Shown: piece after piece, positions 30,051 to 45,178 of the stretch
Layout: each line of letters opens with the position of its first letter
How positions within the stretch are numbered: the stretch's first letter is position 1
Source: an uncultured Poribacteria bacterium
Lineage (GTDB): Bacteria > Poribacteria > WGA-4E > WGA-3G
Direction: 5' to 3'
Length of the DNA: 64,000 nucleotides
NCBI GenBank assembly: GCA_951828515.1
Contig: OX639992.1
Span: 496,001-560,000 of the forward strand
The notes under the pieces: model-generated
The model's input: only the letters and a program-made list of their open reading frames with translations
What the model was told of the DNA's origin: nothing
Database searches by the model: none
Program-made: the position numbers and the translations under genes

Positions 30051-32615
30051 TCACTCAGTATTCAACCGAGCGGATATCTCCAAAAATTCCTGCTCGCTGA
30101 ATACCAGTTGGAAGATGCCTTGCTGTCTGGGACCGTCGCAGACGACCATTCTCCCGGCGGTGTTGAATGCTCCCTCCAGTGTCTCTAACACTTTTCGCTT
30201 ATACTCGGTGTCAAGGTTGCCTTCGAGATGTTCACCTTTTGTGTCAAAAATCAAGACGCGCGTTATTCCCGCGACTTCATTTGTCATGGCAACGAAGTCT
30301 GGATAAATACGACCGCGTTTCCAGCCTTGTAAGTAGTATTCACCCCGCTGACGCGCCGCGATCCGATGCCACCATTGCAAGGCTCGCTCCTCGTCAAGGT
30401 AATACGCAAACTTCTTCTCCAATTCGCTGTCGAATTGCTGCTCAAAAACGGGTTCAAATAGACTTAACTGCACAGGTTCATAATCGCTCTTTAATAGCGG
30501 TCTATCCTCAGAGCGAACCTGTATTTTGTAGCTGCCTACCATCCGATAGTTGGGTTCTTGCGTCTCCAAATCAAAGCGGATTTCATCCTGATCCAGTTTT
30601 CTACGAAAGACCTGCTCCGCCTGCGTCTCGACTTCACTTTTCACGTGTTCCCGAAGGGTATGTGCGAGGTAAGAACGCCGATTGTAAATGTCTGCTTCGG
30701 TCTCACCGGCTGCTCTCAGGCGTTCGTGCATCTGCTGTGCGATGCGAGCCGCTTGCCAGAGATTCGGCATAATATCAGACAGACGGCGAGCGAAATCGGA
30801 GATGCTAACGGTTCTGTCAATGTAGGGTTCCTGCTCGGTATGGAAAACGGGTGCGACCTCACCCACATCAACCGTTGCGGATTGCCTGCGGACGTTCTCA
30901 GGTGCGGAGGCTTGTGGGTCGGGAGGTTCGATTGCTGACCAGTCTACATGCGGTAGGATATGCGCTTGATAATTGAGCTGAATCCATCTATCGCCATCTC
31001 TATGGCGGACCACGGGCAGGTAGATTTTCCGGTTTTGGAACCGGTCTCGGCGTTGCACAGTCTGCTGTTGAATCTCGTGCTGTTCACTCCCTTGGGGCAA
31101 ATCCGATGCTCCCATCACTTCATCACCCAAGCCTGTCAATCCCTCCGATTCCAGTCCGTTTTTAACCTGTGTGACGACAGTGCCGACATCAACATTATTG
31201 CAGTAGACGTAACACTGATCCAGCGATGCTCTACCGGTGAGTTGTGCGTGCGGTTGTCGCATCACGCGCCCGACGAGTTGTGTAATCGCCCGCTGCGCTT
31301 GTGTATTGTCGAGCATCACCAACAGATAGGCGAAGGGGCAATCCCAGCCTTCCATGAGTGCGGATTTTGTGATTATCCAGCGCACCTGCGAAAATTCCGA
31401 AAGCAGATTTTCTCGTCCGAGTTCATCGTTTTCAGCAGATTTGACGCGAACTGTATCCGAAGGGACACTGAGGTTGTGCGTGAGATACTCCCGGACATCT
31501 TCAGCGTGGATGCGCTCGCTGTCGCGTTGATCCCTGCCTGTCCGCTCGACGCGCACAACGGCGATCGGACGGATGTATCGTCCCGTGCTGTTCTCATACG
31601 ATTGTGCCTCGGTGTCAAGGCGTTCCAGTTCATCAGCAGCTTGGCTGAGGGTTAGCTGCCACTCGGCATTCGGAAACGATGTCACCTGCACGGGTAACTT
31701 AATCATTTCCTCTCTTTTCAGGTCGGGTCCCTCGATATCAACAAGCAGATTGCTGATGCCGCGGTTGGGTGTAGCGGAGAGTTCAATCACTATACGAGGG
31801 TCAAGACGGTTGATGGATTTGGCGAATTCTTCGTTTGTTTGCCGATTTCTCGCACCGTAAGCCTTATGTGCTTCGTCGAGAACAACGATGGGACGCAGCA
31901 TTTTGAACACGTTAAATAGACTCTGTTTGACGAGTCCGCCTTCTGTGTGGCACTCCAGATCGGGATATTCATTTCGCAACCGGGCATTACCGAAGATATC
32001 GTCGCTGTCGGGGTAAAAACTGGGGTAGCGACCGGAATCCCGAAACATACGGAGGAATTCTCTGCCTTTTTGTCGGTTCGTTGCTGGGAGCATCAGCAGC
32101 ATGACGCAGAGATAATTGGCGATATCGTCACTGTTGAAGGTATCCTCTTTCTCCAGCATTTTGACGCGTCCCGCGCTCGCTCGGTTTAACATTTTACGGT
32201 AGGGGTGTTGCTTATCCCACAAGGCTGTTTTGGTTTGATTGTAGATTGCCTTACTCGGCACAATCCACAGGACCAAGCCTCGCTGCCACGGGAGACGTTC
32301 GAGAGCGGCGGCAGCGAGTAGGGTTTTCCCGCCACCCGTCGGTACTTTAAAGCAGATGTGTGGAATAGGTCGGTTCGCTTCATCAGTACGGTCAACGTGT
32401 TCGCTTGCTGTTGCCGCGACACCGCCGTTCTCCTTCAGTTTTTGCCATGCAGCTTTCGGATAATTGCGTAATTCATTGATAATTACGGTGTCAATCTGCC
32501 TCCGTTGCAGGAGTTCAATTGTCGTTTCTGAATCACGCTGTGCGTCTTTAAGTGCCTCTAACCAACGTGTCAAAGCCTCAAGGGCACCGCGTTGATATTC
32601 CTTTAATTCCAGCAT
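30051..32615 (-). CDS. type III restriction enzyme Res-like helicase-nuclease
   Basis: 854 residues. SF2 helicase motifs: FKVPTGGGKTLLA (Walker A, about 89-101), VVLDEAHKAYG (about 244-254), ELSATPNRG, and motif VI region TQLVGRVMRQPHAQL. A C-terminal PD-(D/E)XK nuclease is suggested by YPDFVAM and, after a strand, LIFDTKGEHL (about 788-797). This order is that of type III Res subunits, though it is shorter than EcoP15I. It follows the Mod gene by 45 bp with AAAGG before ATG. It would translocate and cut DNA with unmethylated sites. Confidence 0.88.
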   Translation of the reverse strand: MLELKEYQRGALEALTRWLEALKDAQRDSETTIELLQRRQIDTVIINELRNYPKAAWQKLKENGGVAATASEHVDRTDEANRPIPHICFKVPTGGGKTLLAAAALERLPWQRGLVLWIVPSKAIYNQTKTALWDKQHPYRKMLNRASAGRVKMLEKEDTFNSDDIANYLCVMLLMLPATNRQKGREFLRMFRDSGRYPSFYPDSDDIFGNARLRNEYPDLECHTEGGLVKQSLFNVFKMLRPIVVLDEAHKAYGARNRQTNEEFAKSINRLDPRIVIELSATPNRGISNLLVDIEGPDLKREEMIKLPVQVTSFPNAEWQLTLSQAADELERLDTEAQSYENSTGRYIRPIAVVRVERTGRDQRDSERIHAEDVREYLTHNLSVPSDTVRVKSAENDELGRENLLSEFSQVRWIITKSALMEGWDCPFAYLLVMLDNTQAQRAITQLVGRVMRQPHAQLTGRASLDQCYVYCNNVDVGTVVTQVKNGLESEGLTGLGDEVMGASDLPQGSEQHEIQQQTVQRRDRFQNRKIYLPVVRHRDGDRWIQLNYQAHILPHVDWSAIEPPDPQASAPENVRRQSATVDVGEVAPVFHTEQEPYIDRTVSISDFARRLSDIMPNLWQAARIAQQMHERLRAAGETEADIYNRRSYLAHTLREHVKSEVETQAEQVFRRKLDQDEIRFDLETQEPNYRMVGSYKIQVRSEDRPLLKSDYEPVQLSLFEPVFEQQFDSELEKKFAYYLDEERALQWWHRIAARQRGEYYLQGWKRGRIYPDFVAMTNEVAGITRVLIFDTKGEHLEGNLDTEYKRKVLETLEGAFNTAGRMVVCDGPRQQGIFQLVFSEQEFLEISARLNTE

Positions 32616-32660
32616 GTTTCTATTACCTTTTGTTACGGCACACGGAGTGTGCCTACTACC

Positions 32661-34280
32661 TTACCTTTCGTGCAGAGCATCGGGGAGTTGGCAGAATATA
32701 ATACCCATCTTTGTGAGTTCACGCTGACCGATGTAATTGCCAGCGGCGTAGACAATCGCTTTTCTACCGTTTTCACGACTGGCATTGCAAATACGTTCTG
32801 CGCGTTCCAAGTTGAGAATAGCGGCGTTGCTGCGTAACCACTCAAGGTCGGGTTTATAAATCAGGTAGTAGTCGTTTTCGTCGTCGGTGTGGAAAAGTCC
32901 GTTATCATTTTGTGCCTCCAATGTATCTGCACCTACGGAAGCACCAGCAGCGGTATACAACAGATTGGCAGCGAGTGCTGAATACGAAGGCAGTGCTTCT
33001 CCGGTGAGTATCGTTTCTACCTCAATGGGTTCGCCCAAGTTACAGTAGGTAAAGGAGCCTCCTAAGCCTTCTTGCAGTGCAGCGTCCCGGGCATCGGGGA
33101 CACCGCTGATAACACGACGGACACGTTCAGCGGTAATGGTGTCGGCATAATCTTCGCACTCAATGAGGATAAACTTTCGATTCCCATCATCTTCTCTGTT
33201 AAGGTCAAGCACAGCATGGGCAGTAGTGCCTGAGCCAGCAAAAGAGTCAAGGATAATGGCATCTTTACTGCGTAGCAATTCCAGCAAAAACTTAATAAAT
33301 TTTATAGGCTTAGGTTGGGGAAAAACACCGCCTTCACCAAATATATCACGAAGTTCACCTGTTCCTTCTTTATTGAATCCTACGATTTCTGGTGAGAGGA
33401 ATACATCTGGTGGTTGACCTTCTTGAACCTCAGAGAGATACCTTTTTGCCCTCGGTTCGGTCCCAGAAAAATCAATGCGACCTTCGCGTTCCATGCTACG
33501 TAATGTATCTTGCGAATAACTTGGATAACGTCCCGATGGGGGAGACCATACAGTTCCATTTTCAAAAGTGAATGTGTATGGTTCGTAATAGTTTCGAGCA
33601 CTGAGTGGGTCAAGTTTGTACTTCCCTCTACCATCATTGTCGTCATGAGGATACTTCGCTGACTTATCAACAATGTAACGAATATACCGACTTTTGTCTT
33701 CACCAAACCAAGATTTCTCTTTTGCATAGACTAAAGTGTTGTCAGCATTGTGGTTAAAATCTTTGCTGGAGTTACGCACAGTATGCATTGCTCTTCGCGT
33801 AAGAACTGCAAAAAAGTTTTTCTCGCCAAAAATCTCATCCATCAACATTCGCAGGTGATGTACTTCATTGTCATCAATTGAAACGAAAATTACACCATCA
33901 TCTGAAAGCAGTTCTTTGAGTAGGTGCAACCTCGGCCACATCATGCAGAGCCATTTATCGTGCCGTTCCAAATCTTCGTTATCTACGGGAGTATTCTCGG
34001 TGAGCCATTGCTGCATCAACGGGCTGTTTACGTTGTCGTTGTAAACCCAGCCTTCGTTACCGGTGTTGTAGGGTGGATCGATGTAGATGCACTTGATACG
34101 GTTGGCATAGCGTGGAAGTAACGCCTTGAGGGCATGCAGATTGTCGCCGTGGATGATGAGGTTGTCGTCTGTATCAGATGGATTGCAGGAGCGGGTTTCG
34201 TCGGGTTCGAGGGGTCGGTAGGGGACGGTGAGATGGTGGGCGTAGATGTGTTGTTTTCCTTTGAATTCAAGTGTAGGCAT
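32661..34280 (-). CDS. type III-like DNA methyltransferase (Mod)
   Basis: 539 residues. Beta-class amino-methyltransferase order: catalytic IYIDPPYNTGNEGW (about 66-79) first, the SAM motif SFAGSGTTAHAVLDLN later, with IIHGDNLHALKALL before. Such enzymes methylate adenine N6 (sometimes cytosine N4) and provide sequence recognition to Res. Between the motifs lies a target-recognition region. AAAGGAAC precedes ATG. It lies 31 bp after the receiver-domain gene and forms the Mod-Res pair with the following gene. Confidence 0.9.
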   Translation of the reverse strand: MPTLEFKGKQHIYAHHLTVPYRPLEPDETRSCNPSDTDDNLIIHGDNLHALKALLPRYANRIKCIYIDPPYNTGNEGWVYNDNVNSPLMQQWLTENTPVDNEDLERHDKWLCMMWPRLHLLKELLSDDGVIFVSIDDNEVHHLRMLMDEIFGEKNFFAVLTRRAMHTVRNSSKDFNHNADNTLVYAKEKSWFGEDKSRYIRYIVDKSAKYPHDDNDGRGKYKLDPLSARNYYEPYTFTFENGTVWSPPSGRYPSYSQDTLRSMEREGRIDFSGTEPRAKRYLSEVQEGQPPDVFLSPEIVGFNKEGTGELRDIFGEGGVFPQPKPIKFIKFLLELLRSKDAIILDSFAGSGTTAHAVLDLNREDDGNRKFILIECEDYADTITAERVRRVISGVPDARDAALQEGLGGSFTYCNLGEPIEVETILTGEALPSYSALAANLLYTAAGASVGADTLEAQNDNGLFHTDDENDYYLIYKPDLEWLRSNAAILNLERAERICNASRENGRKAIVYAAGNYIGQRELTKMGIIFCQLPDALHER

Positions 34281-34311
34281 AGAGGTTCCTTTAAGGGATT
34301 ATGCAGCAGAT

Positions 34312-35394
34312 TTAGGTAGTGTAACGAGTAACAAAATCCTTACTGTCAATATCCGGCTGTCCTTGCCGTGCATAGTATGAAGAAAAGCGCGATACGATGT
34401 CCTTTACAAAAGACGGAGATATCTGAATTGTGGGTTTTCCGAATTTTTCATCAAAATCATCCTCATTTAGAGTCTTCAGTTTTCTGAAATTGAGTATCCC
34501 ACCCTCAAAAAAATCGGTTTCTGGTAGCCAATGATAATAGTCTGTATAATTGTTATTAAAGACATCTCGGAGGCTATTTTCTTTACTCCGTTTTCTTGTA
34601 ATGCCATTCAATGCAATATTCACAATATCGTTTTCATCCGCAATCTCAACAAGGAGAATGCGATCTGTTTTAAATCCACCATTTCTTCTAACGAGGTCAC
34701 ACGCTGGACTTAGAACGACAAACGGTTGATCGCTTTTCTTTTTCTTCACAATGCTTCCGGTTGTGATATTTTCAGACATGGGTGGATATAAGTAAAACTC
34801 TTCAGGAAAGCAACGTTCTTCGTCTCCCTCAAGAAGTTGCAGGAGGTGATTCAGAGTATATCGGAGTAGAGCTTTTTCAGTTCGTTTTGGATCGGTCTCT
34901 TTATAAGTTTCTCCATAACGTATCCAAGTATCTATCTGTGGCAGAAGGTTTTCAAGAAATACTTCACGCAACTGCTGTTCAATCAGTCCTCTTCCCCCTA
35001 TAATATGGGTAAGTCCAATATCTCGTATCTGTTGAAACAATAAGAGATCATCGCGATATGATTCAACTTCGCTACTGCGGCTCTTTATGATTGAAGGATG
35101 ATCAATCACTAAATCGGGTAATCCTGTTACGACAATAATTGGTATTTTAGTAAATTCATTATATAGTATTTGAATAATTTCTTTTCCACCCTCGTCGTTA
35201 TCTCCCAAACGCAAGTCTATAATTGCCCCGTCGTAGGATACGTCAAGTGTTTTCACTGCATCGTTAACGTTGTCTACTATCTCATACTCAACGTCCGGAT
35301 TATTGGGTTGACCTTTAAATACTTCTACGTCATTTTTAAATGCGTTTTGCGGAATTGTTTCGTCTTCGACGAGCAATATTTTTAGCGGGTTCAT
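34312..35394 (-). CDS. response-regulator receiver protein with unknown output domain
   Basis: 360 residues. An N-terminal receiver domain: LLVEDE acidic patch (8-13), the probable phosphorylated Asp60 in AIIDLRLGD, and the switch Thr in IIVVTGLP. After about residue 140 comes a domain that I do not recognise, with VVLSPACDLVRR (Cys in the centre of the motif) and a C-terminal helical segment. It has no HTH or other usual DNA-binding motif that I can see. Its ATG overlaps the stop of the kinase/ATPase gene by ATGA, so the two are made together: a kinase-regulator pair embedded in a restriction operon. Confidence 0.85.
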   Translation of the reverse strand: MNPLKILLVEDETIPQNAFKNDVEVFKGQPNNPDVEYEIVDNVNDAVKTLDVSYDGAIIDLRLGDNDEGGKEIIQILYNEFTKIPIIVVTGLPDLVIDHPSIIKSRSSEVESYRDDLLLFQQIRDIGLTHIIGGRGLIEQQLREVFLENLLPQIDTWIRYGETYKETDPKRTEKALLRYTLNHLLQLLEGDEERCFPEEFYLYPPMSENITTGSIVKKKKSDQPFVVLSPACDLVRRNGGFKTDRILLVEIADENDIVNIALNGITRKRSKENSLRDVFNNNYTDYYHWLPETDFFEGGILNFRKLKTLNEDDFDEKFGKPTIQISPSFVKDIVSRFSSYYARQGQPDIDSKDFVTRYTT

Positions 35395-37565
35395 TTCTCA
35401 CTTTCCTTCTCGGGTTGAAGTCTAAAGTGTGCTCCATCATCAGCTTCATAGACTTCTAATCTAAGACTATTTCGAGCCGCAGCCTCTCCTGCTATAGATA
35501 ATCCTAAACCTGTTCCATTTGGTTTGTTGGTAAACCCGGGTACGAAAATCACTTCACTTTCAATTTCTTCAGGGTCTATTCCTGGTCCAGTATCATAATA
35601 GTCTATATAACGTAAAGTGCTACCGTCCATCTTGAATTCAATAATGATTTTACGTACTTCAGCATTATCTTCTCGAATCCAATAAATACTATTGTCAATG
35701 AGGTTTATAAAAATAGAATATATATCCTGAACCCGGGCAGAGTACTTTAAGTTGTCCGGTCCCCTAATTTCAAGAGATATGTTGTTAGATTCCATTTCCT
35801 TTTCAAAGATAGAACACACACCTTGTATTGTTTTTTTTACGGGTAAGGGTTTTTTGACTGTACTTCTTCTCGCCGCAAGAGGGTCTAATCTTTTAAAAAG
35901 TTTCACAAAGATATCTGCACTTTGAACCATACCACTTGCAATCCGAATGATGTTTTCAAATGCTATTGGATCGTTTGTTTTCTGAAATGTCTCAAACCAA
36001 TATTTAAGATTAGGTATTTGGCTATTGAAGTAACCGAGGGGTTTTCTGCCTTCATGAAGTATTATACTAACAATTTTACCCAATGTGGCATCAACCTGAT
36101 AAATAGCGACAATTGTCTGAATTTCATCAACGATTTTGTTTTTTTCTTGGACATCTTGATTTATAAATTCAATGGTTTTTTCAACGGTTTTTTTGTTCAC
36201 TTCGTCTTTTTGAAGATGCTTCTTTACATTTTCTATTAACTCTTCGGATGAAAAAAGTCCTTGCAGACTTTCTTCTACTTTGACAGGGGATCTACTTTGC
36301 CCTGTATTTTTTCTGTATTTAAAACGTCGGATCTCAAGTTCTGATATAACCCGTTTTGTGATAGCCTGCAGTCGATTGAAAGCCACATTTTCTTTGAGTC
36401 CATCCCTAGCACTTTTCTCAATCAAATCGGATTCATCTTCTGACTGAATCTGCACATATCCGATCACTTGATTGCTGCCAATCCGGAGAGTAGGGTTATT
36501 GACACGCCTCGCGTTTAATTTCAACCAGTCAAATCCAGCATCGCCAAGTGGGCGGATACGAAACCCATTTCGATAAACACCTATTCCATTATAATAATTT
36601 AAAAGCTGCCTTGCAGTAAGTCTTCCAAATGGACTATCAACATGCTCTTCAAGTCCTCGTTTGCTCAAAGCATTTATAGCTTCCGTCTCACGGTCAAATA
36701 CTCGAATATCAATATTAAGTTTACCACATCCGGTTTTCTCTTCTCTATTATTGAAAGGAATCTCTTCTTCACGGCTGTTACGTTTTCTCTGATTTGAGTA
36801 TGCCAGCACACCATTACCATTGGCATCTATAGTGCCAGAGATTTTGTAGTCAAATAGTTCATAAATAGGAAATGGTTCAATGGTTTCCTCTACATCTTCC
36901 GGGGCTGAAAAACCTTCTACTTTCAAATTGATACGAAAGTAGTCATTGCTACCTTCATTATTAAAAATGTTACTCATCGGTGATGTCAGTTTTTTCAGCT
37001 CAAATCGGAGTTTTTCAAATCGTTTTTTGTCCCATTCTTTGAGAAAGTTATCTTTTCCGTTAATGGTCAACACCGTCCCTGAGGGTTCTGATACTTCCAC
37101 TGTTTTAATTGGTATTTCCACATCATCAAGATATTGTGCTACCTCAAATTTATCCCATTCAACATAGACGGTTGTTTTTTCGCCCTTGTTTGTCACTGTT
37201 TTAAGATGTAAGTTATTACCAAGAATTGAAGCCGCATAACGTCCCACACCTTTACTGCCTTGTAGTATTCTGCCAGCAGGACTCTTACCCCTCTTAATCT
37301 TGTCTTCAGTTGATGGTACCAACCATTTGTTGATAATATCATCTCTGGACATACCGTGCCCATGATCAGAAATGACGATGGAAATGGAATATTCGCTAAG
37401 GCTTGGAATCTTCTTAAATTCTATGTTCACATGAGGTGAGTCGGCATCATAAGCGTTTTTTACCAACTCAATAACAGCTGCATAATTGTCCTGAATAAGA
37501 TCACGACCGATGGTGAGAATATGTCGTCCGGCGGGTTTAATTTTGTAAGTTGTGTCGTTGTTCAT
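35391..37565 (-). CDS. GHKL ATPase fused to histidine-kinase core
   Basis: 724 residues from ATG 37565 (an upstream TTG would add three). N-terminal Hsp90/MutL/MORC-like GHKL ATPase: ELVKNAYDADS (N-box, about 33-43), SDHGHGMS (about 66-73), and the ATP lid GSKGVGRYAA (about 103-112), followed by an S5-like region. A helical linker leads to a second, kinase-type core: LHEGRKPLGYF with candidate phospho-His504, INLIDNSIYWI (N-box), DYYDTGPGI (G1) and NGTGLGLSIA (G2). It overlaps its neighbours on both sides by ATGA. Likely a sensor that signals to the receiver protein downstream. AT-rich compared with housekeeping genes. Confidence 0.88.
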   Translation of the reverse strand: MNNDTTYKIKPAGRHILTIGRDLIQDNYAAVIELVKNAYDADSPHVNIEFKKIPSLSEYSISIVISDHGHGMSRDDIINKWLVPSTEDKIKRGKSPAGRILQGSKGVGRYAASILGNNLHLKTVTNKGEKTTVYVEWDKFEVAQYLDDVEIPIKTVEVSEPSGTVLTINGKDNFLKEWDKKRFEKLRFELKKLTSPMSNIFNNEGSNDYFRINLKVEGFSAPEDVEETIEPFPIYELFDYKISGTIDANGNGVLAYSNQRKRNSREEEIPFNNREEKTGCGKLNIDIRVFDRETEAINALSKRGLEEHVDSPFGRLTARQLLNYYNGIGVYRNGFRIRPLGDAGFDWLKLNARRVNNPTLRIGSNQVIGYVQIQSEDESDLIEKSARDGLKENVAFNRLQAITKRVISELEIRRFKYRKNTGQSRSPVKVEESLQGLFSSEELIENVKKHLQKDEVNKKTVEKTIEFINQDVQEKNKIVDEIQTIVAIYQVDATLGKIVSIILHEGRKPLGYFNSQIPNLKYWFETFQKTNDPIAFENIIRIASGMVQSADIFVKLFKRLDPLAARRSTVKKPLPVKKTIQGVCSIFEKEMESNNISLEIRGPDNLKYSARVQDIYSIFINLIDNSIYWIREDNAEVRKIIIEFKMDGSTLRYIDYYDTGPGIDPEEIESEVIFVPGFTNKPNGTGLGLSIAGEAAARNSLRLEVYEADDGAHFRLQPEKESEK

Positions 37566-38827
37566 GACTCCCAATTCTCCTTTAACTTTTCCGCAATTTT
37601 TTGTGCAAGAAGCACAGGGACAGCATTTCCAATCTGGCGATAGGCGGGGGTCCGGCGAGGTCCACCATTATGACTTTCAAAATAATAGTCATCTGGAAAT
37701 GTCTGTAGCCTTGCTGCTTCCCTCGGTGTGAGCGAGCGATTCTGCTCAATATCATAATGAATGTAATAGTGACCATCCATTGCGATATGGGCAACAATGG
37801 TGTGTGAGTATGATAAATTCCCTGCCACAACGTTGAATCGATTCAGAAAGGTACTCTTGTTTTCATGCGTTTGCAGTTGTTTGGGAAGTTCATTGTACTG
37901 AAGTCGAACCTTTTTCTTATTCCAGAGATCAACGGCGATTCTATAAATTTCTAAATCCTCTTTCCTATTGCACCGTGCTTGATGGAATGTTACCGGCATT
38001 TCATCATTCCGTATCTCTACGTCATACAACCATTGTTCAGCTTTGGAATCAATTAGGGATGGCCCCGCAGTTCCCCCGCCTACTGTAATAAAAGGCAGAT
38101 CCGAGAGAATTTCTTTCACAGGAACATCTGATGTACACTTATTCAGTTCCGGATAGAAATCCGTTGATGTTCCTTTTTTTCCAACAAGAATAACCCTTCT
38201 CCTATTTTGAGGAACACCGTAATCTTTTGCATTAAGTGTCTCAAATTCTGTTTCATAACCATACTCCCGGAACAGATTTTGCATAAGATTTAAGTAAGAA
38301 TCACCTTTTTCGTCCGTAGCAGATAGGAGCCCGGGGACATTCTCAAATACAAAATACTCAGGTTTGTACTCTTTCAAGAATTCGGCGTAGAGCAAATACA
38401 GATCATTCCGTGGGTCGTCCTTCATGCGGTTTGGACAACGCGCGCGTCCAATAACTGAATAGGCTTGACAAGGCGGACCTCCAATAATCAGATCAATTTC
38501 TTGATCTTCCAAAAGACTGTCAATCTGGCAGAAAATATCTTGTAGTGTATCTTTGCCAATTTCCCTCTTGATAACAGATTTGATTATCGCCCCGGGCACT
38601 AGGTCATAAAATTCTTTCCTGTTAATATTACCTTTTAGATAATTGGTGTATACTTCTAAATTGTCATCCTCTTTCAACTTATGGTATGCCATTCGGGTCT
38701 GGAGTGTATAACAAGCAGCTGTATCCATCTCAACGTGCGCGATAGGGTTAAAGCCTGCACGGATAAATCCTTCAGAAAGTCCTCCGGCTCCCGCGAAAAG
38801 ATCGAGATAATTACGTTTACTGCTCAT
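37562..38827 (-). CDS. dcm: DNA (cytosine-5)-methyltransferase
   Basis: 421 residues from MSSKRN. Motif I LDLFAGAGGLSEGF, catalytic motif IV GGPPCQAYSV (Cys120), motif VI FENVPGL, motif VIII QNRRRVILVG, and motifs IX-X TPREAARLQTFPDDY and YRQIGNAVPVLL. It makes 5-methylcytosine to mark self DNA. The target-recognition region lies between VIII and IX (about residues 230-350) and its site is unknown. It is the first gene of the five-gene restriction operon and overlaps the ATPase-kinase gene by ATGA. Confidence 0.94.
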   Translation of the reverse strand: MSSKRNYLDLFAGAGGLSEGFIRAGFNPIAHVEMDTAACYTLQTRMAYHKLKEDDNLEVYTNYLKGNINRKEFYDLVPGAIIKSVIKREIGKDTLQDIFCQIDSLLEDQEIDLIIGGPPCQAYSVIGRARCPNRMKDDPRNDLYLLYAEFLKEYKPEYFVFENVPGLLSATDEKGDSYLNLMQNLFREYGYETEFETLNAKDYGVPQNRRRVILVGKKGTSTDFYPELNKCTSDVPVKEILSDLPFITVGGGTAGPSLIDSKAEQWLYDVEIRNDEMPVTFHQARCNRKEDLEIYRIAVDLWNKKKVRLQYNELPKQLQTHENKSTFLNRFNVVAGNLSYSHTIVAHIAMDGHYYIHYDIEQNRSLTPREAARLQTFPDDYYFESHNGGPRRTPAYRQIGNAVPVLLAQKIAEKLKENWES

Positions 38828-38920: not shown

Positions 38921-38950
38921 ATTGTACTATAAAACTAAAAACAATATCAA
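38921..38950 (-). promoter_or_regulatory. predicted promoter of restriction operon
   Basis: On the minus strand TTGATA (38945-38950), 18-bp spacer, TACAAT (38921-38926), about 95 bp before the methyltransferase ATG. The IS3-family end lies only about 45 bp upstream of the -35. Confidence 0.45.
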
Positions 38951-40303: not shown

Positions 40304-40528
40304 TTATTGTTCGCGTTCATCTGACTCAAAGGGCAAATCGAACTTTATAGGTATTTTCCCCTCTTCGATTGACTGGTTCAGTGCTTCAATATCTTCATTA
40401 GTGAGATGTGGTGGTTTCTCCATTGCCTTGATCAGGCGTTGTGCAGCGGGATTTTTTTCTTGTTGCGGGTTCCTATTTCCTCTCTGACTCGGATTCTGTC
40501 CAATTGCGAAACTGCTGTAAAGTCTCAT
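40304..40528 (-). CDS. small hydrophilic protein, antitoxin-like
   Basis: About 74 residues if started at the ATG 40526-40528, which lies inside the 3' end of the STAND gene in another frame; a start farther upstream or at the internal Met (MEKPPHLTNEDIEAL) is also possible. The C-terminal AMEKPPHLTNEDIEALNQSI and FDLPFESDEREQ recall short antitoxin-type proteins, but no toxin gene is seen downstream; the IS end lies about 100 bp away and may have removed it. Function not established. Confidence 0.45.
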   Translation of the reverse strand: MRLYSSFAIGQNPSQRGNRNPQQEKNPAAQRLIKAMEKPPHLTNEDIEALNQSIEEGKIPIKFDLPFESDEREQ

Positions 40529-43500
40529 AGTCCACTCCGAGTGAAACTGCTTGGAGTACAGCGAGTAGAATTTGTCCAATTTTTTTCTTCCCGCCCTCAC
40601 TACCCTTACAAGCTTGTTCTATTTGAGGAACTGTCAACACAGGTGTTTTCAGTGCAGCGCGCAATTTTATTTTCTCAAGCCACTGGACAGAAAGCAGCTC
40701 TGCTAAGTCTGGCGCAACGGGATCTAGCCATATCAGATTATTAATGAGACAAGTCGTAATGAGTGTGTGTGCATGAAAAAGATTTTCTGGACTCGTTTCG
40801 ATATTATAAACAATCTTTAATGCCGCTGCAAGTCGATTTTCATCTTTAGTACCTTGTGCCTTCATCACTGATAAAGCGTTATTTTCGTTTCCGGATAATG
40901 TTGATTCAATTAGATTAAGAGCAGTGATCAAATTTTCTTTTATAGGTAATTCAGACGAATTCTCACGCCATATAGCCAAATTTTCATATATATTTACGCC
41001 CGTTGGTAGTTGAACAAGAAAGGACGCTACCAACATAATAGTGATGCTCTCAACAGAAGCGAAATTAGGCAGACCAGTGATAGGTAAGGAATCAGTTTCC
41101 CCGACTCCAACTCCTTGCCCGCTTTGGATATGTTTCTGTATTGAGTCACATACATTTGCTAATTGATGTATCCGTTCCGGTAATTCATCGAAGGTTTTAT
41201 TTCTAAAATCATGTTGTGTTTTAAGGAAGAAAAGAGAACTAATTGATACTATATCTGCCTCTTGATCTACGATCTGCAATGCACGATCTACAACTTTTGT
41301 TCCATGCCCAAATTTATACTCAAGTTTTGCTAGAGTAGACCACGCATATCCTATTGGGAAATCGGGTAAGTTCAGAACCTCTTCATTTGTTTCTGGATTA
41401 CTGCAGAAACCTACAGACGGTTCTTCGGATTCTGAAGTATAATTTTCGTTCTCGTGATATGCTATCCATCCTATGGAACCCATTAAGCGTTTCTTCAAAG
41501 TAAAGTACTGAAGATTCGTGTTGTCTTGAGGGAGCATCTCAAAATTTTGCAATGCCAGACTCAATAGTTTTATGCTATCCAACATATTGCCTGCCTTAAA
41601 GTGGGCGAATCCGGCATCTGCATAAAAACCGATATATCTTTCAGTGTTCTCAATGTTTGGGATTCTTTTCGCACCATCTTCAAAAAAGGCAGCCACTTTC
41701 TCCCAGTTGTCTAAATGGGCAGCACATATCGCAGCCCGACGACATCCGTCTGACGGCATAACGTCTAATTGTCCTGATGGTGGACTCCACTCTGGGAGAA
41801 TACGTTCGTAAATATTGAGTGCTTCTCTGTAGCGTTCCTGGCGGAAATATACCAATGCTTGCTCTTCTTCTATTACCGGTAGTGCTCCCACTTTTGACAT
41901 AATATCTTGGAGAATTCTATGGGCAGTATCAGGGTCGTGCAAGTATTCATCGTGAATGATGGCTTTACCTCTTGCTGAGGCTGCAGCGATATAAGGATAA
42001 CCCCATGCAATAGTTTTCTTAATTACCTTGTCATATACCCGAAGGCATCTTGCCCAATCCGGATTTTCAAGATCCGCTTCCGCTCGCCATATACCATCTA
42101 TCAAAACTCGAGAGTCAATAGTGTCATCCTCAAAATCAGCCAATAACAGAACCCGAATTTCTGGCTGAAGTTCATCTAGGGCATCAATAAGGTCGCTGAG
42201 AAACGGTGCGTAAATAGGGCGGCGCGCATAAATAAAACCAAATAAGATACTGAAGTAGTTAGATTTATCAGTTTTATACCTTTTCAAGTGTTCTACAGTA
42301 TTATCATACACTTCTTGAACATCTTTAAGTTTTTCTGTGATGCCAATAACTTCCGTGAGATAGCCTACTAATTGCTTAACTGGTAGTGAGACTTGGTGAT
42401 ATATCAATGCCTGCGTCGCCAGCATCAGGCGAGATAGCAGATATGATTGATGTGGTTCGTGTGGCTTGGTTTCTTTATCCCAAATTTCAAGTATCTTCGG
42501 GGCAAACTCTGGTTCCACTTCAACAGCAATGCGATATTGCAATGATCGAAAGCAATAATTTGCAAAGGTATCTCCAGGAAATAATTCTTTGGATGGATTA
42601 GTTTTAATGTGTGTGACCCACGAAAGTACTTGGCTGACCATTTTCCAATCGTCGTCTGAAGCAGTCATCAATGACGCAATGACAGCAATAACTCCCTCTT
42701 TATTCACCCCATGTATACTATGTAAGAGCACAGACCCGGCTTCTATTATAGTTAAATTGTTTGCTTTGAGGATTGCATTCGCAACCTGAGCATGAAGGTC
42801 ATTTATCTTGCTCTTAGACCAAACCTCATTGGCTGCATTCTTCAATAAAGGAGAAATTGTGTAGTAGTTTTCGCTAACTTGGTCTATCCATGGCCCAACC
42901 AACTGACTAAAAACATCCCCTGGATAAGGTATAGGTTTTGGTATTTCACCAATGTTGCGCGCGTAATCTTTCCTGAATTCAGTAAGCAAGCTGAGTCTAT
43001 AAAGAAATTCCCGCCTATCTTCTGGCAAGTCCAGGAGCAATTGTCGCGATGCTTCACGTTCTTCTACCACTTCTTGGGGGGTTTGCAAGATACTTTCGAT
43101 TACATCTTGTCGCTGCCAACCTTTTTCCCGTAAATGAGTGAGTAGAGCGTGTACGAGCCTTGGGTGTCCGCTTGTACGAACTTGGAAACAGTTTGACCAA
43201 GTTTTTGCGTGTTCAGCGGAGCACCCCAATTGTTCAGCAAATTGCTCAATCTCGGAGATGGTAAAGTTCGGAATATTAACTGTTATTGCCTTTGATACAC
43301 CAAGACGGCGGATGAAATTATTGGGAGGCTTATGTTGGCTTGTGATTAATAATTTCGCGCCACGTTCCAGTACTCTATAGATCACAATACCCAAAACATT
43401 TTCATACGTCCGCAACTGTTGAGGTTGTAGATTCAGATCATCGAGGACTACGTTAACCTGCGCGGCCTGATTACTTATTGCAATAGAAAGTTGCTGCAAA

Positions 43501-44831
43501 AATTGGGCAACCTGAGATGGATCTTTGTTTGTGAAATTTAACCAAGACCAGTCCCCATTTATGCGTTTTGTAGTCAAATTTGCAAGTGTTGTTTTTCCCC
43601 TTCCTGTTCCTCCTTGAATTACAGCGATGCCTTCTGATTGGAGTTTAGTTTGGATACTTGTAAGTAATTCTTCTCTCGGAATTGCATCAGGTAAAAGCTG
43701 TGGCACTGTATTTTGTATGTGAAATTTGGATTGAATAGCAATGTTAATATCAGGTGAATCACCAAGAAATGCTTCTTTAATAGAATCAAGTAAGGTTTTT
43801 AAGTTAATCGTTCGCTGGCCTTGAGTGTCCTGAATTGGGACACTCACTCTCGTATTTTCTGAAAAAATTTCAAGAAATTGCTTTCGAGTCAATCTACGTT
43901 TTTTTTCATCTGATGCTGCTCTCCATGCCTCTGTGATAAGGGAAGCAACGACTTTTTCAGCATCAAAAGGTGAGATACCGTATCGATCACCATGGTGAAT
44001 CAAACTTTCACGTATGGATTGCTCAACGTAACTGGCGGATTTGCTATCTGTCTCCCAAGTGATAGGTTCTATGAGCTGTTCATAAATCTCTTGAGATGAT
44101 GCTACCTCCAGAAAATTATTTACTTCCTCTGATATTTTTCCATCAGTCCGTAAAAAGTTGGATATTTTTTCTATAGATGTTTCATCACCGGAACAACGAT
44201 TCCATACTGCAAGCCCCGGTTTATCCATTCCAAGTGAATCACCTCGTTCCTCAACTATTTTGGATTTTGTGAGAAGCCGGAATTTCACACGCCGATCTCG
44301 ATTGTTAGTCCGCAGTTTCCAATAGTTATTGACCGCGGCAACTACCTGTTCAGACCTGAGTGTTATATTGTCTCGCGTGTGTTTGACTTGTGTTGCCGTA
44401 AACGTTCCACCTGACTCTATATCAAAGTCTTCTGCAACTTCAAGATAGAGACTATCATTATCAGCAAGGTCCAACCAAGCATTTACACTATGCAAGATTT
44501 GGTAAAAATAACCCTCTATAGAAGCATGTGCTTGATGCTTGGAATCTGCTTTTATCGGTTCTTGGTGAAGTACCCTGAGTTGAGAGGCTGGGAAACTGAG
44601 GCATTTATACATCTGTCCGTTGTCATCGCTAAATTCAACCTCATACGCTTCGCCGTTTGCCAAGATTTCAACGACTGTGCCGACTTCTCCACGCTTGAGG
44701 TTATGCTCAGGGACATCTTGTGTGAGCGCGACGACATCCAGAAGTTTAATTCTGTCTTTTTCTGTAGGCTCTTGATTACGTTCAGGCACGTTATCCCTAT
44801 TTAAGGTGTTATCGGAAGATTTGTTTTTCAT
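40473..44831 (-). CDS. DUF4926-Cap4 nuclease-STAND NTPase-helical repeat protein (Avs-like)
   Basis: 1452 residues. Domain order: DUF4926 (about 27-90; IKLLDVVALTQDVPEHNLKR, RGEVGTVVEIL); a DUF4297/Cap4-like PD-(D/E)XK nuclease (about 100-320; IEGYFYQILHSVNAWL, AEDFDIE...TQVKHTRDN); a STAND P-loop NTPase (Walker A IQGGTGRGKTTLA about 405-417, Walker B VNVVLDDLNL about 459-468, SGHPRLVHALL winged-helix entry); then about 750 residues of TPR-like helical repeats as a probable sensor. This is the plan of antiviral Avs proteins with a Cap4 effector; DUF4926 at the front is unusual. It overlaps the DUF6883 gene by ATGA. Confidence 0.85.
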   Translation of the reverse strand: MKNKSSDNTLNRDNVPERNQEPTEKDRIKLLDVVALTQDVPEHNLKRGEVGTVVEILANGEAYEVEFSDDNGQMYKCLSFPASQLRVLHQEPIKADSKHQAHASIEGYFYQILHSVNAWLDLADNDSLYLEVAEDFDIESGGTFTATQVKHTRDNITLRSEQVVAAVNNYWKLRTNNRDRRVKFRLLTKSKIVEERGDSLGMDKPGLAVWNRCSGDETSIEKISNFLRTDGKISEEVNNFLEVASSQEIYEQLIEPITWETDSKSASYVEQSIRESLIHHGDRYGISPFDAEKVVASLITEAWRAASDEKKRRLTRKQFLEIFSENTRVSVPIQDTQGQRTINLKTLLDSIKEAFLGDSPDINIAIQSKFHIQNTVPQLLPDAIPREELLTSIQTKLQSEGIAVIQGGTGRGKTTLANLTTKRINGDWSWLNFTNKDPSQVAQFLQQLSIAISNQAAQVNVVLDDLNLQPQQLRTYENVLGIVIYRVLERGAKLLITSQHKPPNNFIRRLGVSKAITVNIPNFTISEIEQFAEQLGCSAEHAKTWSNCFQVRTSGHPRLVHALLTHLREKGWQRQDVIESILQTPQEVVEEREASRQLLLDLPEDRREFLYRLSLLTEFRKDYARNIGEIPKPIPYPGDVFSQLVGPWIDQVSENYYTISPLLKNAANEVWSKSKINDLHAQVANAILKANNLTIIEAGSVLLHSIHGVNKEGVIAVIASLMTASDDDWKMVSQVLSWVTHIKTNPSKELFPGDTFANYCFRSLQYRIAVEVEPEFAPKILEIWDKETKPHEPHQSYLLSRLMLATQALIYHQVSLPVKQLVGYLTEVIGITEKLKDVQEVYDNTVEHLKRYKTDKSNYFSILFGFIYARRPIYAPFLSDLIDALDELQPEIRVLLLADFEDDTIDSRVLIDGIWRAEADLENPDWARCLRVYDKVIKKTIAWGYPYIAAASARGKAIIHDEYLHDPDTAHRILQDIMSKVGALPVIEEEQALVYFRQERYREALNIYERILPEWSPPSGQLDVMPSDGCRRAAICAAHLDNWEKVAAFFEDGAKRIPNIENTERYIGFYADAGFAHFKAGNMLDSIKLLSLALQNFEMLPQDNTNLQYFTLKKRLMGSIGWIAYHENENYTSESEEPSVGFCSNPETNEEVLNLPDFPIGYAWSTLAKLEYKFGHGTKVVDRALQIVDQEADIVSISSLFFLKTQHDFRNKTFDELPERIHQLANVCDSIQKHIQSGQGVGVGETDSLPITGLPNFASVESITIMLVASFLVQLPTGVNIYENLAIWRENSSELPIKENLITALNLIESTLSGNENNALSVMKAQGTKDENRLAAALKIVYNIETSPENLFHAHTLITTCLINNLIWLDPVAPDLAELLSVQWLEKIKLRAALKTPVLTVPQIEQACKGSEGGKKKIGQILLAVLQAVSLGVDYETLQQFRNWTESESERK

Positions 44832-45178
44832 AGTTTATCCTGATTTGTCAATGGAAACGCGGTTGTCAATTTTGGGATGTCAGAACCCGTTTCAATAATC
44901 CAAGCACTCCGAATCGTTGCTTGTTTATCCCGCCAATTCAGCGTGAAATCAAGCGTATACCGCTGTCCATACGCGTCCGTTTCTCCTAATTGTGCATCTT
45001 GTTCATTGACCACTTCTAACAAGGTATTGCGTAACTCTTCTGCATCGTCAGAGTCCATACCGAGCAAGGAAGTAAATAGGCGGGCTTTATGTTTCCCTTT
45101 ATTATGCTGTGGATTGAGACAATAATCTCGCAACTTGCGAATGTCTACAACAGCACGTTCAGCATTTGGTATTTTCAT
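44828..45178 (-). CDS. DUF6883 domain protein
   Basis: 116 residues matching the DUF6883 pattern as I know it: N-terminal AERAVVDIRKLRDYCLNP, HNKGKHKARLFTSLLGM, then YGQRYTLDFTLNWRDKQATI and RSAWIIETGSDIPKL. In many genomes this gene is followed by a separate small DUF4926 gene and the pair has been suspected of being toxin-antitoxin-like. Here the partner domain is fused to the next protein. The overlap is ATGA, so the two products are made together. Confidence 0.82.
   Translation of the reverse strand: MKIPNAERAVVDIRKLRDYCLNPQHNKGKHKARLFTSLLGMDSDDAEELRNTLLEVVNEQDAQLGETDAYGQRYTLDFTLNWRDKQATIRSAWIIETGSDIPKLTTAFPLTNQDKL

Follow-up and report, generated by a model that had tools for sequence, protein, structure and literature searches.

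Loci in which a C5-cytosine DNA methyltransferase (C5-methylase) gene is accompanied by two-component-like proteins have been on record since 2021, when Bellieny-Rabelo et al. (PMC8011034) described a kinase with HATPase_c_3, HEF_HK and HATPase_c domains, a Response_reg_2 protein and, often, a Vsr gene; its authors proposed signalling that controls, or is linked to, restriction-modification genes and left the receiver without an identified output domain, and the sections consulted describe neither a direct linkage to type III Mod-Res genes nor a MazF-like output domain. Restriction operons are likewise known to include GHKL proteins (Iyer et al. 2008, PMC2292703). Here we analyse a five-gene locus in a stretch of 64,000 nucleotides (the window: positions 496,001 to 560,000 of contig OX639992.1) from an uncultured Poribacteria bacterium whose genome is a single contig of 5.85 Mb. 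The five genes are two modules, a C5-methylase, a kinase and a response regulator (module 1) and the type III genes mod and res (module 2), and what our analysis adds is a conserved output domain of the response regulator, which is predicted to adopt the MazF/PemK fold and appears to be shared with the PF19192 group of 2021. The reading that we favour, albeit tentatively (at a probability of about 0.45), is that the locus is a methylation-linked two-component effector unit standing before a type III system that works independently alongside it.

All five open reading frames lie on the minus strand, in the order C5-methylase, kinase, receiver, Mod, Res; ATGA overlaps join the first to the second and the second to the third, 31 bp separate the receiver gene from mod and 45 bp separate mod from res, so that the layout given in a first-pass annotation is borne out exactly by the window coordinates:

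37562..38827, minus strand: C5-cytosine DNA methyltransferase, module 1 (PF00145, DNA_methylase, E=4.8e-64; best PADLOC profile DrmMII, 547 bits, full length)
35391..37565, minus strand: cytosolic kinase, module 1, with an N-terminal MORC/HSP90-like GHKL ATPase, a DHp-like helix (H504-E505) and a C-terminal HATPase_c (PF13589 and PF02518)
34312..35394, minus strand: response regulator, module 1, with a receiver (about 1-130, D60), a helical linker and a C-terminal domain (about 195-345) of predicted MazF/PemK fold (profiles and models)
32661..34280, minus strand: type III Mod, N6/N4 methyltransferase, module 2 (PF01555, E=8.6e-34; PADLOC MTase_III, 529 bits)
30051..32615, minus strand: type III Res, helicase-nuclease, module 2 (PF04851, ResIII, E=2.5e-12; PADLOC REase_III, 632 bits)

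By inspection, the C5-methylase retains intact motifs DLFAGAGG, GGPPCQ, ENVPG, QNRRR and GNAVP, Mod carries DPPYNTGN and FAGSGTT, and Res carries PTGGGKT, DEAH and the nuclease motif YPDF...FDTKG; the type III Mod and Res (the latter a superfamily 2 helicase plus nuclease) are adjacent and intact.

Both ATPase domains of the window kinase are recognized by Pfam (HATPase_c_3 at the N-terminus, E=4e-17; HATPase_c at the C-terminus, E=9e-16), and PF13589 and PF02518 are both present in 44/44 family members. The family profile matches solved histidine-kinase cores over its C-terminal half and HtpG, MORC3, PMS1 and MutL over its N-terminus. H504/E505, N621/N625, D658/G660/G662 and the first GHKL site (E33/N37/D67/G69/G71) are invariant across the 44 members, with single exceptions at two G2-box glycines. 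Decay of the kinase-receiver pair was rejected for most loci on the pairwise ratios of nonsynonymous to synonymous substitution rates (dN/dS) of its genes, 0.09-0.39; only genome G084 is clearly broken at the pair, and in G054 the pair is split between contigs.

Taken alone, the window receiver gives a sub-threshold match to Response_reg (E=0.014), but its identity is secure, because 37 of the 46 family members match that model (best E=1.5e-6) and the family profile matches solved receivers, e.g. ArlR and RcpA; E10 and D60 are invariant in 46/46. Conservation extends strongly over residues 190-360, where E199, G213, P230, C232, D233, K331, R336, R343, Q344, G345 and P347 are invariant in 46/46 and P291 and F303 are invariant as well. 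AlphaFold2 modelled the whole protein with a predicted local distance difference test score of 89, and the output domain, which was modelled alone because a Foldseek search of the PDB with the full model returned mainly receiver domains, with a score of 86. The best 50 PDB matches of this second model were all MazF or CptN, at probability 1.00 and with target TM-scores (template modelling scores) mostly of 0.60-0.73 (0.48 for CptN), and nine of all matches reached E<=0.001; by inspection, the order of strands and helices also agrees with that of poribacterial PemK proteins, except for one helical insertion. These models predict a MazF/PemK-like fold for the output domain, and what we claim is a resemblance of fold only. 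Neither Pfam nor the best 50 PDB fold matches link the domain to a DNA-binding family, and Pfam yielded no convincing nuclease family for the window protein or its family members; the open-access literature returned nothing relevant on a receiver-MazF fusion by title or abstract.

Two side observations concern receiver domains in Poribacteria. By sequence they are of two types, whose distribution departs from the kinase tree (e.g. in G028), which suggests recombination inside the receiver gene. Furthermore, a separate receiver protein of 225 residues, which shares about 40% identity with the window receiver domain, stands alone in four poribacterial genomes (L037:5589-6266, L038:2735-3412, L039:11229-11906 and L040:9015-9692), and in G054 a 225-residue receiver lies near the C5-kinase-receiver genes on the opposite strand.

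That module 1 is a unit in its own right emerges from its distribution. Scanning with the receiver alignment recovered 49 loci from genome contigs and two from viral contigs, L089 being excluded since its match was only fragmentary; 40 loci lie outside Poribacteria. Of these, 39 have the kinase gene next to the receiver gene, and 33 of the 34 with enough flank have a C5-methylase within a few genes of the pair, a lone receiver (L067) being the sole exception to either association; the first-pass annotation was thus right to tie the pair to a methyltransferase, and the two genes are not found mostly away from restriction genes. Neighbours of module 1 outside Poribacteria include Vsr (16 loci), an HhH-GPD glycosylase (4) and a set of MORC, Z1 helicase and AIPR genes (4). 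Since 11 loci with flank on both sides hold the C5-methylase, kinase and receiver genes but lack every other restriction or repair gene that was sought, these three constitute the minimal conserved unit. Vsr proteins repair deaminated 5-methylcytosine, and by analogy the HhH-GPD glycosylase may do the same; with one or the other beside module 1, the C5 enzyme is presumably active and makes genuine 5-methylcytosine. In the reading that we favour, module 1 is self-contained and horizontally spread, and the three-gene unit is widespread yet little studied. One relative stands on an integrase-bearing viral contig; the kinase alone found no match in viral contigs, where the receiver alignment gave its two loci, and a search of a phage collection returned one distant record only.

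Several loci deserve separate mention. In L077, L081, L082 and L083 (WOR-3, Spirochaetes, Methanophagales) the HhH-GPD mismatch-glycosylase-like gene replaces Vsr after the receiver, and in L071, L075, L080 and L085 the MORC, Z1-helicase and AIPR genes stand beside the kinase-receiver genes, together with a C5-methylase where the contig allows. Conjugative Campylobacter plasmids carry kinase-receiver genes as well (L024 and 40 further plasmid records); in L024 the C5-methylase gene is convergent and the kinase reading frame is missing 71 residues at its start, which belong to the first ATPase.

The same cassettes bear on our main rival explanation, according to which the kinase and receiver are the ATP-dependent restriction half of a C5 system, the GHKL part being a DNA-sensing motor akin to HgiDII/BbrUII and paraMORC proteins, and the output domain binding or cutting unmethylated DNA. 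Within the families searched, the three-gene cassettes yielded no further endonuclease, a Vsr gene next to a C5-methylase gene is characteristic of true restriction-modification loci, the N-terminal part of the kinase shows similarity to the BbrUII/HgiDII restriction family (NF050001, E=7.7e-14), and the presence of GHKL proteins in restriction operons has a precedent (PMC2292703). We nonetheless hold this explanation to be unlikely: the output domain matches a toxin fold rather than a restriction-type nuclease, without a convincing match to any nuclease family, and intact kinase-receiver genes outlast the loss of the C5-methylase in several lineages.

Module 2 has a different distribution. 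The kinase-receiver pair occurs in 13 poribacterial genomes, and in 10 of them mod comes directly after the receiver gene (G000, G044, G029, G073, G079, G028, G069, G053, G027 and, on a split contig, G054), usually at a spacing of about 25-36 bp (82 bp in G029, 236 bp in G028); in G070 mod lies three genes beyond the receiver, and in G081 and G084 Mod-Res is not beside the pair. The five-gene order is not a product of chance, because all five genes recur in order in G079, where a small gene precedes res, and the first four do so in G044, G073, G027 and G028. Res is nevertheless present in Poribacteria in about 44 near full-length copies (at least 64% identity), six of which adjoin the receiver; these counts come partly from draft assemblies, and in G062, G067, G056, G058, G065 and G039 adjacency cannot be seen directly because the contig ends close to res. 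More telling are G061 and G075, where the tatC and GFO/IDH oxidoreductase flanks of the window are matched with Mod-Res between them and no remnants of the C5-methylase, kinase or receiver were found at the site; the same site in G053 holds kinase, receiver, Mod and Res. Because G061 and G075 hold Mod-Res alone, Mod-Res does not need module 1. Outside Poribacteria, Mod-Res of the window type is near the pair in 0 of the 40 loci, and L052 has a different type III-like gene pair upstream of a C5-kinase-receiver-Vsr cassette. The pairing of Mod-Res with module 1 in Poribacteria is real but optional. Several Poribacteria also carry, between mod and res, a small HicB-like gene that the window lacks (L028:2588-2911, L036:13029-13352, L035:13326-13649, L119:2718-3041).

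The first-pass annotation had taken the five genes for one system, in which the relay would detect infection or methylation state and then license or trigger Mod-Res. The gene order on which that proposal was built is real and recurrent, and the close placement of the pair before mod in 10 of 13 poribacterial loci speaks for it, as does the type III-like pair of L052; however, only six of the roughly 44 res copies adjoin the receiver, G061 and G075 have complete Mod-Res genes and no pair at the same site, none of the 40 other loci has Mod-Res of this family near it, and G081 keeps the pair without Mod-Res, which weakens the case for Mod-Res as an obligatory effector. Nor need Mod-Res be the receiver's effector at all, because the receiver has a conserved output domain of its own. 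Such licensing now appears very unlikely, and nothing that we found requires Mod-Res as the output of the relay, frequent as the pairing with Mod is in Poribacteria.

According to the reading that we favour, the C5-methylase would modify the host genome, while the N-terminal MORC-like ATPase clamp of the soluble kinase would sense a cue inside the cell, most probably DNA that is unmodified or invading; the kinase would then autophosphorylate on H504 and pass the phosphate to D60 of the receiver, thereby switching the fused MazF-like domain and stopping growth or phage production, and Mod-Res, probably co-transcribed in this clade, would act in parallel as a complete type III system. We infer the sensed cue, the phosphotransfer, the toxicity of the output domain and the self-marking by C5 methylation alike. 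The more specific proposal, in which module 1 amounts to a phosphorelay-gated toxin that DNA methylation guards, its MORC-like kinase reading infection or the C5 state and a His-Asp transfer switching the MazF-fold effector, is possible, if doubtful.

Several observations weigh against this reading. The canonical receiver lysine is not evident in the receiver family. The Foldseek E-values of the output domain are modest (5e-4) and the root-mean-square deviation is near 5 A, hhalign finds no relation between the domain and poribacterial PemK proteins (probability 0.1), PF02452 is matched neither by the window receiver nor by the 46 family members, and the catalytic Arg and Thr of MazF are, by inspection, not conserved at the matching strands. 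Because these residues are not conserved and the sequence profiles show no relation, the domain may carry a MazF fold without RNase activity. The frequency with which mod directly follows the receiver in Poribacteria hints at a functional tie with Mod-Res. Furthermore, the C5-methylase is missing beside an intact kinase-receiver pair in four genomes, being reduced to remnants in G029 and G053 and absent from the vicinity of the pair in G070 and G081; in G081 no C5-methylase match was found anywhere in the genome at E<=1e-8. On the kinase tree G070 and G081 form a sister pair (support 100); we infer that the gene was lost in their common ancestor. Between these two genomes dN/dS is 0.089 for the kinase and 0.145 for the receiver, and, if the loss was indeed ancestral, the pair seems to have remained under selection without the C5-methylase, which weakens the case for the latter as an obligatory self-mark. 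Marking of self by C5 methylation, as suggested earlier, is still plausible, but in no fewer than three poribacterial lineages the pair has outlived the methylase.

The pair may alternatively be a plain regulator, whose output domain, instead of being an effector, controls expression of the C5-methylase and its neighbours as a control protein would. This would fit the tight operon overlaps, which are compatible with co-regulation, and the signalling control of restriction-modification genes suggested in the 2021 paper (PMC8011034); the lack of a DNA-binding match for the output domain in Pfam or among its best 50 PDB fold matches, and the persistence of the pair in G081, where C5-methylase and Mod-Res are both absent, make it quite unlikely. 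If, conversely, the effector reading is true, a MazF-like output domain in both branches provides a testable answer to the question of the receiver's role, that of a defence unit and not of a regulator, and restriction-modification, two-component signalling and abortive infection are joined in one three-gene unit. The five-gene order is modular and its type III system optional; hence, the three-gene unit is the starting point for tests.

As for the surroundings of the locus, a possible promoter lies 5' of the C5-methylase gene:

38921..38950, minus strand: TTGATA-18-TACAAT, 10/12 consensus, weak

This candidate is weak because shuffled versions of the region hold about as many promoter-like sites as the region itself. 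An IS3-like element with an integrase core (PF00665; 39017-40139, minus strand) stands between the C5-methylase gene and a gene for a 1452-residue protein (40473-44831, minus strand) that matches DUF4926, a Cap4-like nuclease and a STAND-type ATPase and is LmuA-like according to PADLOC; a DUF6883 protein (44828-45178, minus strand) is encoded beside it. The LmuA-like protein is likely a separate defence gene. Similar-looking genes, for proteins of about 1430 residues, precede mod in two loci (L119 and L128), and in L129 one separates mod from res.

Comparison with described systems places the locus near several of them. The C5-methylase matches DrmMII of class 2 DISARM (PDLC02649, 547 bits), with general type II methyltransferase profiles also scoring highly; DISARM was rejected, as DrmA, DrmB and DrmC were not found among the ten neighbourhood proteins scanned. 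Mod and Res are a canonical, adjacent type III restriction-modification pair, except that three extra genes, optional in the poribacterial clade, stand in front. With the MazF, PemK and CptN toxins the receiver output domain shares its predicted fold; it differs in having no sequence-level similarity to them, in not conserving the catalytic Arg/Thr of MazF, in its own invariant set (C232-D233, K331, R336, R343) and in its fusion to a receiver.

Detocs comprises three genes, for a kinase and two receiver proteins, one of which has an effector domain fused to its receiver domain. Module 1 resembles it in employing two-component-type proteins with an effector, presumably for defence; on the other hand, the window locus has one receiver gene, no PNP effector match was found there, the output domain matches the MazF fold instead, and module 1 includes a C5-methylase and a kinase with a MORC-like ATPase in front. 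Detocs, the defensive two-component system of Rousset et al. (2023; described in PMC11249213), is the nearest functional analogue; it may resemble module 1 in the outline of its working but belongs to a different family. Prokaryotic MORC and paraMORC GHKL ATPases (PMC2292703) likewise place an N-terminal GHKL ATPase beside DNA methylases, and some module 1 loci also have the MORC-Z1-AIPR set; unlike them, the module 1 kinase adds a histidine-kinase ATPase core, conserves the histidine of its DHp helix and is partnered by a receiver.

Closest of all are the HEF_HK/Response_reg_2 loci (PF19191, PF19192) of the 2021 paper (PMC8011034), which combine a C5-methylase, a dual-ATPase kinase with a DHp-like region, a receiver-like protein and often Vsr. 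A two-component pair in a restriction locus is consequently not new, but the present family escapes both models: PF19192 matches neither the window receiver (E<=1) nor any of the 46 family members (E<=0.1), and PF19191 does not match the window kinase (E<=1) and is not among 25 of the 26 families matched by the 44 members. Searches of the relatives and of six homologue-holding genomes found no PF19192 member; it took a broader collection, 346 genomes of the order of the Aeromonas genome G085, to obtain any. The kinase here is shorter (about 720 residues versus about 990), as is the receiver protein (about 360 versus about 540-670), the latter is recognizable as an ordinary Response_reg, and its downstream neighbour in Poribacteria is type III Mod-Res. 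Conversely, the HATPase_c_3, DHp-like and HATPase_c architecture is shared, with the pair adjacent and C5 nearby, homology between the kinase families extends over 681 columns (hhalign probability 100, E=1.8e-49), and the TGxIV...PACDLV block of the output domain is common to the receivers (hhalign 96.7, over this short block only). Judged from these profile comparisons, the present family is a sister branch of the HEF_HK/Response_reg_2 group and the two appear to share the output domain; were the proposal of a phosphorelay-gated toxin true, such units would be spread over numerous bacterial phyla and also some archaea, and the PF19192 group would be their second branch.

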